The notes beneath the pieces were generated by a model. It was not told the origin of the DNA and ran no database searches. It saw nothing but the letters and a program-made list of their open reading frames with translations. A stretch of 64,000 bases of DNA, from positions 1,488,001 through 1,552,000 of the forward strand of contig WGMG01000006.1 in NCBI GenBank assembly GCA_016125185.1, in the 5' to 3' direction. Both the position numbers and the translations under genes were made by a program. This DNA is from Armatimonadota bacterium (GTDB lineage Bacteria; Armatimonadota; Fimbriimonadia; Fimbriimonadales; Fimbriimonadaceae). Below, one piece after another: positions 59,638-63,686 of the stretch (its first letter is position 1; each line of letters opens with the position of its first letter).

Positions 59638-60565
59638 GATGACTATCCTTGTCGTTGGGTTTTGTAATGAACCGGAGCTTGGCCGAGCGGCTGCGCGAGT
59701 TGCGCCTGACTTCAGCTTCGGTCGGCACCAGCGGCTTCTTGCCGCCGGGCGTAAATCCTTCTTCCGCGAGCTTCGCGAAAACGTTCTTGACGATTCGATC
59801 CTCGCCGCTGTGGTAACTCAGCACCGCGAGACAGCCACCTGGCTGCAGGCATCGCGCGGCATCGTCCAGAGCCTCCGCCAGCCCGTCCAGTTCGGCGTTC
59901 GTCATGACCCGGATCGCCTGAAATGTGCGGGTCGCCGGGTGAATCCTCTTATCGCGCGCCTTGACCGGAATTGCCGCCAGCACGCACTCCACCAAATCGT
60001 CGGTGAAGCGCAACGGCTGATCCTTCCGCCGCTCGACGATCTTCTTCGCAATCGCTCGGGCCCATCGCTCGTCCCCGTATTCGATCAGCGCATCTTCGAT
60101 CGCCTGCGGCGAAAGCCGATTCAACAAAGCCGCTGCGGGCTCGCCCCGACTGCGATCCATTCGCATATCGAGCGGTCCGTTTTGCCGAAAAGTGATGCCC
60201 CGGGTCGGATCTTCGATCTGCGCCGAATTCAACCCCAAATCGAGCAAAATCCCATTTGGCTTGATCGAATACTCCTGCAGAGCCAGCTTCATCTCCCTGA
60301 AGTCAGAGTGGATGAAGTGAACCGTCACGCCCGACGGACTGCCGATTCGCTCTCGCGCGACCGCCAGCATCGACTCATCCCAGTCCAGACCAACCAGCGT
60401 TCCACCTGGTCGAATGGCGTCGATAAAGTGAAGCGAGTGGCCACCGAGCCCGAGCGTTCCATCCACCACGCAATCCCCCGCTTTTAGCGAGAGCGCGCGC
60501 AGGACCTCTTGGACCATGACCGGCTCATGAGGAAAAGTTCGTGGTTCCATCATGATCGCGCCCAT
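59612..60565 (-). CDS. rsmH: 16S rRNA (cytosine1402-N4)-methyltransferase RsmH
   Basis: A 317-residue SAM-dependent methyltransferase acting on C1402 of 16S rRNA. Family features: FPHEPVMVQEVLRAL near the start, SAM loop DGTLGLGGHS, LLDLGLNSAQIEDPTRGITF, RRKDQPLRFTDDLVE and CLAVLSYHSGEDRIVKNVF. It starts at ATG 60565, one base into the mraZ stop (TGATG); GTG 60568 is a possible alternative. It sits in its usual place after mraZ in the dcw cluster. Confidence 0.96.
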   Translation of the reverse strand: MGAIMMEPRTFPHEPVMVQEVLRALSLKAGDCVVDGTLGLGGHSLHFIDAIRPGGTLVGLDWDESMLAVARERIGSPSGVTVHFIHSDFREMKLALQEYSIKPNGILLDLGLNSAQIEDPTRGITFRQNGPLDMRMDRSRGEPAAALLNRLSPQAIEDALIEYGDERWARAIAKKIVERRKDQPLRFTDDLVECVLAAIPVKARDKRIHPATRTFQAIRVMTNAELDGLAEALDDAARCLQPGGCLAVLSYHSGEDRIVKNVFAKLAEEGFTPGGKKPLVPTEAEVRRNSRSRSAKLRFITKPNDKDSHHERISSNS

Positions 60566-61101
60566 CACTCCGGCGAGAGCAACCGCTCAAGCCTCCTGAG
60601 TTCTTCTTCCTCTTCGAAAGCCTTCTTGCGGAGAGTGTCCAGGTCTTGTCGTTGCGAAGCCATGAAGCCCACCGGACTCTCGATGAAATTGCTGTACGCC
60701 GAACCCGACATGAGCGTGAAGTCTCGCCCGCTGGCGATCACCACGCATTCGTCTTTAATGTCGATACCCATCAGCTTTCGCAAATCGGCAGGAATGTTCA
60801 GGCGATTCGCATTGTCGATCTCGGCAAATCGAACGTGGGAGTAGACCGCGCTCAGGTAGTACTTCGCGCTGACGTTGTCTTTCGAGAACCGGCTTTCAAC
60901 CTTGGCCCTGATCTCGTCGAACTCCTGCGCGGGATAAATCCTCATAACCTTCGATGCGTCGCAAACCAACTTCACGTCAGTGCCGAGCGCATCGCGGATT
61001 TCCTTTTGGAGCGTAATGCGGCCCTTTTCATCGACGCGGACCGGTTCGTGGCGAGTGACTTGCAATGTCAGGTCCGGCTCTTTTCTGATCTTTTCCGCCA
61101 T
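60565..61101 (-). CDS. mraZ: Transcriptional regulator MraZ
   Basis: A 178-residue protein with two AbrB/SpoVT-like repeats: VDEKGRITLQKEIRDALG near residue 23 and EIDNANRLNIPADLRKLMGI near 95. In other bacteria MraZ rings bind repeated short boxes upstream of their own operon and control the dcw cluster. The second repeat departs somewhat from the usual DxxGR form. An acidic helical tail (EEEEELRRLERLL) extends the C-terminus beyond the usual about 145-150 residues. It is the first dcw gene, with a promoter and candidate MraZ boxes about 150 bp upstream. Confidence 0.92.
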   Translation of the reverse strand: MAEKIRKEPDLTLQVTRHEPVRVDEKGRITLQKEIRDALGTDVKLVCDASKVMRIYPAQEFDEIRAKVESRFSKDNVSAKYYLSAVYSHVRFAEIDNANRLNIPADLRKLMGIDIKDECVVIASGRDFTLMSGSAYSNFIESPVGFMASQRQDLDTLRKKAFEEEEELRRLERLLSPE

Positions 61102-61237
61102 TGTGGACCTGCCGCTGTCTACCTCTTAAGACTTTTGTGGGCAGGGGAGTCTGCATCCATGCATCCACCTGCCCGTAATTCTTGAGTTGGCACCCCAGCC
61201 TTCTCAATCCACCTCCATCCCAGAGTTGAATGAGATG

Positions 61238-61266
61238 ATTATACGGGACTTTCTCCCACAGAACAA
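61238..61266 (-). promoter_or_regulatory. Promoter of the dcw cluster (mraZ promoter)
   Basis: On the minus strand, a perfect TATAAT (61238-61243) with 17 bp to TTGTTC (61261-61266), a weak -35. The leader to mraZ would be about 130 nt, containing a GGGCAGG/CCTGCCC inverted pair. Confidence 0.65.
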
Positions 61267-61280
61267 CCCCAATTTCCCAC
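61254..61280 (-). promoter_or_regulatory. Candidate MraZ boxes
   Basis: On the minus strand, three TGGG(A/G) units lie at 61275-61279, 61267-61271 and 61254-61258; the outer two are GTGGGA exactly 21 bp apart, two helical turns. They overlap the -35 of the mraZ promoter. Known MraZ sites in gammaproteobacteria are TGGGN repeats at about 10-bp spacing, so the match is good though the middle unit is slightly off phase. Confidence 0.5.
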
Positions 61281-61440
61281 AAAATTTCAATTTCTTACAC
61301 GTTAAGAAAACTTCGACTATTTTGTCTAGTCATAAATGATACATTTATGTATATTTATGTCTACTATTATGGAATTAGCAATTTCTGTCAAATGCCCCAC
61401 TCGTGCCAAAACGTGCCGAAATTTGAACCTGAGACGGTCA
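61281..61440. other. AT-rich stretch upstream of the mraZ promoter
   Basis: Noticeably AT-richer than the rest of the window, with runs such as CATTTATGTATATTTATG. No gene is seen. It may be an UP-element-like or protein-binding region between the mraZ promoter and the following small gene. Nothing more can be supported. Confidence 0.4.
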
Positions 61441-61488
61441 AACGTGGGAATTCTCCCCAAAATGTCATAGATTCCCACGACAAATGCA

Positions 61489-61523
61489 AAAGGACCGCCC
61501 GGCATATAGCCCAACGGTCCTTT
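61489..61523 (-). terminator. Terminator of the small minus-strand ORF
   Basis: Read on the minus strand: AAAGGACCG / CGGTCCTTT, a 9-bp stem with a 17-nt loop, followed by TTGCATTTG. It starts 28 bp after the stop of the 34-codon ORF. Farther on, GTGGGAAT and ATTCCCAC (61444-61451, 61471-61478) form a second inverted repeat. Confidence 0.6.
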
Positions 61524-61550
61524 GAAGCCGAATATCGACGACGAAAGTAT

Positions 61551-61655
61551 CTACAGCAGGTGCCGCCTTTCGCGCAGGGACTGTTTGATCAAAACTCCCG
61601 TCGAGAAGGTGCCGGCTGCGAATACTGATATGGTTGCGAGGAGGGTCCAAATCAT
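61551..61655 (-). CDS. 34-residue single-helix membrane protein (candidate)
   Basis: ATG 61655 to TAG 61551. The product has one hydrophobic segment (residues 1-25, including TLLATISVFAAGTFSTGVL) and a short strongly basic tail (KQSLRERRH), the typical build of small bacterial membrane proteins with the tail in the cytoplasm. GGAG lies 10 bases before the ATG and a hairpin terminator follows. TATTAT about 80 bp upstream (near 61735) could be its -10. I recognise no family. It could also be chance, but the signals around it agree with a real gene. Confidence 0.45.
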   Translation of the reverse strand: MIWTLLATISVFAAGTFSTGVLIKQSLRERRHLL

Positions 61656-61733
61656 AGCTATTCAGCTCCACACACCTAATTCCATGAGGCTTCGAGCAAA
61701 ACCCTGGTACCAACCCCAGACTTCGAAACCCAT

Positions 61734-61739
61734 CATAAT
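61734..61739 (+). promoter_or_regulatory. -10 element of the metH gene
   Basis: CATAAT lies 6 nt before ATG 61746. GAGG follows but is only one base from the ATG, too close for normal ribosome binding, so a leaderless start is likely. No SAM or cobalamin riboswitch is visible in the 90 bp upstream. Confidence 0.4.
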
Positions 61740-61745
61740 AGAGGT

Positions 61746-63686
<1,941 letters not shown>

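Follow-up and report, generated by a model that had tools for sequence, protein, structure and literature searches.

The window analysed here is a stretch of 64,000 nt from a genome of the phylum Armatimonadota (G000). In this stretch mraZ, the first gene of the dcw cluster, lies on the minus strand at 60565-61101 (Pfam MraZ, E 1e-12). It is followed by rsmH (Pfam MraW) and then by what we take to be an FtsL-sized ORF, a penicillin-binding-type ORF and a MurE-like ORF. A metH-like gene lies on the plus strand at 61746-63686. Its product has only the homocysteine and pterin-binding domains (Pfam S-methyl_trans, the homocysteine S-methyltransferase domain, and Pterin_bind), presumably the front half of classical MetH. 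There is a small ORF (smORF) between these two genes, at 61551-61655 on the minus strand (stop codon included), with metH divergent from it and mraZ downstream on the same strand. The smORF runs from an ATG to a TAG over 34 codons and its translation, MIWTLLATISVFAAGTFSTGVLIKQSLRERRHLL, is predicted to be a single-pass membrane microprotein. There is a Shine-Dalgarno-like GGAG at 61666-61669 (minus strand), 10 nt before the ATG. A search of the window genome gave one match, showing that the smORF is present there in a single copy. The 34-residue minus-strand ORF between the mraZ promoter and the metH-like gene, and the GGAG upstream of it, had been reported in a preliminary description of this DNA, and both are confirmed. 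The same description placed the ORF below the usual length cut-offs for gene calling, which needs correction. The default minimum gene length in Prodigal is 90 nt and the smORF has 105 nt, and it is therefore not necessarily invisible to gene callers.

The protein was searched for in 85 genomes of the family. Twelve of these match at E 1 or better and six, including that of the window, at 5.3e-6 or better. In all six strong matches the ORF is flanked by metH and mraZ and its orientation is kept, and the relatives in the five other genomes are 44-74% identical. The six genomes are G000, G011 and G024, together with G016, G018 and G023. The proteins align over 36 columns and the sole gap is due to two extra N-terminal residues in three of them; the invariant residues are I2, L6, A7, T8, G15, L22, Q25, E29, R30 and L33. 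The intergenic alignment shows the GGAG retained in 5/6 genomes, with GGAA in G016. Conservation of the frame in close relatives had been set beforehand as the check on which the gene could fail, and the frame is kept in 6/6 genomes of the clade.

Nucleotide changes within the smORF are found mostly at third codon positions. The differences at positions 1/2/3 are 12/3/18 for G000-G011, 10/2/13 for G000-G024 and 8/5/19 for G011-G024; in the other subclade they are 7/3/14, 2/0/9 (G018-G016) and 5/3/11. Within the subclades dN/dS is 0.08-0.19 in five of the six pairs, dS being saturated in the sixth (G000-G011), and between the two subclades it is higher (0.23-0.56, computable in 8/9 pairs). Eight pairs were also simulated, with the same number of changes placed at random. 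For seven pairs, amino-acid changes were as few as those observed in 0-4 of the 5000 trials, and for the eighth in 62 of 5000. Indels in the metH-mraZ intergenic alignment fall outside the smORF frame, except for the two-codon difference at its start, and both sequence divergence and indels set in right behind the stop codon. The frame is thus conserved with an excess of synonymous change across the six genomes, as is characteristic of protein-coding sequence. Because it is conserved in six syntenic genomes, the smORF is more than a chance occurrence, and the third-position bias, the low dN/dS and the location of indels outside the frame are strong evidence that it is a protein-coding gene under purifying selection. 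The opposite view, that the smORF is a non-coding RNA or a chance ORF, could draw on its shortness and on the stretch 61660-61720 upstream of it, which likewise shows conservation at the DNA level within the clade. However, the codon-position pattern, the outcome of the simulation and the onset of change directly behind the stop codon all argue against this, and we consider it extremely unlikely.

The six genomes form one clade in a tree of metH (27 rows; support 100/99), and this clade belongs to a single Fimbriimonas-type genus of the Armatimonadota. A profile search of 113 genomes of the order found the smORF convincingly in no genome beyond the six, and ten matches at E 0.01-0.1 in that search were read as chance. 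Among 291 genomes of the phylum, seven matched at E 0.01; the only one beyond the six was G218, in which two matches, partial and in frames of more than 440 aa, were likewise read as chance. There was no convincing relative in 285 further Armatimonadota genomes, with the exception of one weak syntenic candidate. Matches at loci L007-L012 (E 0.08-0.9) have no metH, mraZ or rsmH nearby and were also dismissed as chance. In G014, an ORF at the same place as the smORF scores 12.1 bits, above 1000/1000 shuffles that preserve the composition of helix and tail; its E value is only 0.051 over the frames of 24 loci, and when whole genomes were searched it did not reach the cut-off of 0.1. A terminator-like hairpin can be seen by eye 3' of this ORF. 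The G014 ORF is likely, though not proven, to be a diverged relative of the smORF. In L109, the neighbour of G014 in the metH tree, no mraZ is found next to metH within the stretch examined. The smORF is therefore carried by six, perhaps seven, of the 20 genomes of the genus. We found no description of the protein family in the open-access literature on Fimbriimonas/Armatimonadetes, dcw and mraZ.

Downstream of the smORF there is a hairpin at 61489-61523 (minus strand) that resembles an intrinsic terminator. The preliminary description gave it as a 9 bp hairpin; the hairpin is real and is larger than stated, with 11 bp plus an inner 3 bp. The 81 nt stretch containing it folds with -34.1 kcal/mol, compared with a mean of -20.3 for shuffled sequences (z -5.0; 0/200 as good), and TGCATTT follows after the last paired T. 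The hairpin is not among the entries of a simple terminator scan of the window, probably because its bulged stem is outside the pattern used by the scan. In 6/6 genomes a strong hairpin begins 23-49 nt 3' of the smORF stop codon. When scored against 20 shuffles per sequence, with no tail rule, this hairpin beats 20/20 in five genomes and is equalled by 1/20 in G018. There is a U-tract at its foot in three of the six (G000, G011 and G024) and none in the other three. The hairpin is present throughout and its sequence differs among the six genomes, so its function rather than its sequence seems to be kept. We predict a full intrinsic terminator in the window and in the two close relatives G011 and G024, which bears out the proposal that the gene has a terminator of its own. 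Since the smORF is followed by this hairpin, it looks like a short transcription unit that would be set off from mraZ.

There are about 390 nt between the hairpin and mraZ. This gap contains an inverted repeat, GTGGGAATTCTCCCC (61444-61458), of which GGG...TCCCAC is kept in 6/6 smORF genomes; a set of TGGG repeats (61253-61281, minus strand), partly conserved in the six-genome alignment, which we take to be a putative MraZ box; and a TATAAT (61238-61243, minus strand), the putative -10 element of mraZ. A TATAAT/TATACT-like element precedes mraZ in the aligned smORF genomes, and there are -10-like hexamers approximately 150 nt before mraZ in many members of the genus that have no smORF. This suggests that mraZ has a promoter of its own. 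It had been proposed that the smORF transcript would run toward the mraZ promoter and could influence dcw transcription. The direction is correct, and as mraZ is also on the minus strand the transcript would be sense towards it. The influence is not supported, because the mraZ -10-like element and the MraZ-box-like repeats are downstream of the terminator and similar promoter-like sites precede mraZ where the smORF is missing. The smORF changes nothing known of dcw control.

The same region bears on whether the smORF could be a leader peptide combined with a dcw operon attenuator, of the UpsM kind, in which a leaky terminator would allow transcription into mraZ. The short ORF, the terminator and mraZ do follow each other on one strand, and a precedent is found in the dcw leader of Rhodobacter sphaeroides, which holds a leaky terminator and an sORF (PMC5089854). 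However, the distance between hairpin and mraZ is about 390 nt and includes a promoter-like site and MraZ-box-like repeats, such sites being found before mraZ in smORF-less members of the genus as well. Additionally, conservation extends along the entire peptide, in which no amino acid forms a run, and the hairpin is neither conserved in sequence nor overlapped by the ORF. We therefore regard a role as leader peptide as improbable.

A separate hairpin was seen in the leader of mraZ, at 61139-61174 of the window (minus strand), 38-73 nt before the mraZ start, with GCA-N-GGATGC in its loop. It recurs at a comparable place in many members of the family (leaders among L033-L081) and in many relatives is preceded by GGGCGGGGTGCTC. 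Of 28 mraZ leaders taken, three were left out because they lack a clear motif or hairpin, and 25 were folded. All 25 form a hairpin, with 22 different, re-paired stems. By a script check, the GGA motif is inside the longest helix in 20 of these; the other five were flagged as negative, and inspection by eye showed that in at least three of them the pattern had first matched a GGA within the stem. RNAalifold gave five pairs, four of them with double changes, and a weak consensus (-0.82 kcal/mol), probably because the stems are out of register in the MAFFT alignment; folding each sequence separately gives a clearer picture. There was no Rfam match at E 1 in the loci of five relatives or on the window stretch. 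The dcw cluster of Fimbriimonadaceae may thus have a structured leader that is not yet described, and this hairpin deserves separate study.

On the other side of the smORF, there is a conserved block, CTGGGGTTGGTACCAGG (CTGGGG-N4-TACCAGG; 61703-61719, minus strand), in the gap towards metH. It is kept in the six smORF genomes and, by eye, was not found whole upstream of metH in 13 other members of the genus; the partly similar CTGGGGTGCTACGG is present upstream of metH in G022. The block is a putative promoter, 5' UTR or protein site of metH or the smORF. A CATAAT at 61734-61739 (plus strand) is the putative -10 element of metH, and a TATTATG-like sequence is found there in many of 19 genus sequences. 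This element ends 6 nt before the metH ATG and recurs in the genus, so the metH mRNA may be leaderless. On the smORF strand the complement, TATTATG, would resemble a -10 element and could serve the smORF, the transcription of which may thus start from the reverse side of the metH promoter. Bidirectional promoters have been described (PMC12825309, PMC10268837).

An ABC transporter gene (ABC_membrane and ABC_tran in Pfam for the G020 copy) is located between metH and mraZ in G007, G017, G019, G020 and G021. A search of 11 genomes at E 1e-30 found no ABC protein relative in the six smORF genomes, G014 and G058, and in G010, G012 and G022 a relative is located elsewhere in the genome. The transporter may have been lost where it is missing rather than gained in the others. 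The smORF may have arisen where the ABC gene was lost between metH and mraZ. A full account of this kind, with gene birth in the gap, expression from a bidirectional metH promoter with a symmetrical -10 element and selection as a regulator of a cell-envelope protein, is speculative and we think it unlikely; if true, it would provide a case in bacteria of a gene born next to a bidirectional promoter at a time that can be dated. Alternatively, the smORF could be a small partner or a remnant of the transporter that sister lineages have at this position, and there are small hydrophobic ORFs just before the ABC gene in G007 and G001. These ORFs were rejected as diverged smORF relatives because they score no better than shuffles (120/1000 and 481/1000 as good). 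The smORF profile matches none of the eight ABC proteins tried (best E 0.32) and, as described above, the smORF genomes have no relative of the transporter. Descent from, or partnership with, the transporter is therefore very unlikely.

The best 19 residues of the six smORF proteins have a mean hydropathy of 1.86-2.50, and the net charge behind them is +1 to +3. AlphaFold2 run on the single sequence gives one helix over residues 3-33 (mean pLDDT 87.8), and says no more than that. The product is thus predicted to be a single-pass protein, having one hydrophobic helix of approximately 19-21 residues and a charged flank, in agreement with the hydrophobic helix and basic tail originally proposed. 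The family has no match in Pfam, NCBIfam, PHROGs, PADLOC or PDB apart from stray matches at E 0.058 (Pfam) and E 0.042 (NCBIfam), each to one of the six members. By the positive-inside rule, the basic flank of a membrane helix stays cytoplasmic. Residues 5-23 would cross the inner membrane and the basic tail, ending in (R/K)ER(R/K)xL, would stay in the cytoplasm (N-out/C-in). The invariant G15, Q25, E29 and R30 would define a packing face and the site at which the tail touches a larger membrane protein, the activity or stability of which the smORF product would adjust, like known small accessory subunits. Small proteins are known in oxidase complexes and as regulators of transporters and signalling (PMC7667032). 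The absence of a known domain is common in this size class; in the GMSC catalogue 6.1% of small protein families match CDD and most are without a known domain (PMC11364881).

The size, the single helix and the charged tail would also fit a chromosomal type I toxin-like peptide of the TisB/Hok/TimP kind, one that harms the membrane in excess and is repressed by an antisense or divergent RNA. Most type I toxins of Escherichia coli have 18-51 aa and divergently encoded repressor RNAs are a usual layout (PMC7667032). However, no antitoxin RNA is evident here and the divergent neighbour is metH; a scan of 60500-63000 for known Rfam families gave one sub-threshold match, inside mraZ. The smORF has one match in the window genome and one fixed locus in six genomes, it has no relative among viral contigs (a single pattern was used) and no PADLOC match, and the constraint on the protein is steady. 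A toxin-like function is thus unlikely. This and the leader peptide are the main rivals, and both are less likely than an accessory microprotein.

Taken together, the data suggest that the smORF is a real gene that encodes a bitopic membrane microprotein of 34 residues, in a short unit set off from mraZ, the product of which would adjust a partner; we give this reading as a whole a probability of about 0.6. The protein is probably young and clade-restricted, and probably serves a larger membrane protein as an accessory or regulatory subunit. For a poorly studied phylum this is one more well-supported family of small membrane proteins, and as the locus is fixed a knock-out or tagging would be simple to design.

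Among known systems, UpsM resembles the smORF unit in that a small ORF and a terminator make up a short transcription unit ahead of mraZ. In UpsM the promoter is shared with mraZ and the sORF spans the terminator (PMC5089854), whereas the smORF ends before its hairpin and a separate promoter-like site precedes mraZ. In size, hydrophobicity and charged tail the smORF product is similar to type I toxins and TimP (PMC7667032). In contrast with these, the smORF is at a single fixed locus under purifying selection, and it is not known to have an antisense RNA or to be toxic. CydX, KdpF and YohP are small single-pass membrane accessory proteins. No sequence relation to them was found in Pfam, NCBIfam or PDB, and the smORF is restricted to its clade, but the architecture is shared, with about 27-40 aa that form a single helix and a short charged tail and no further domain.
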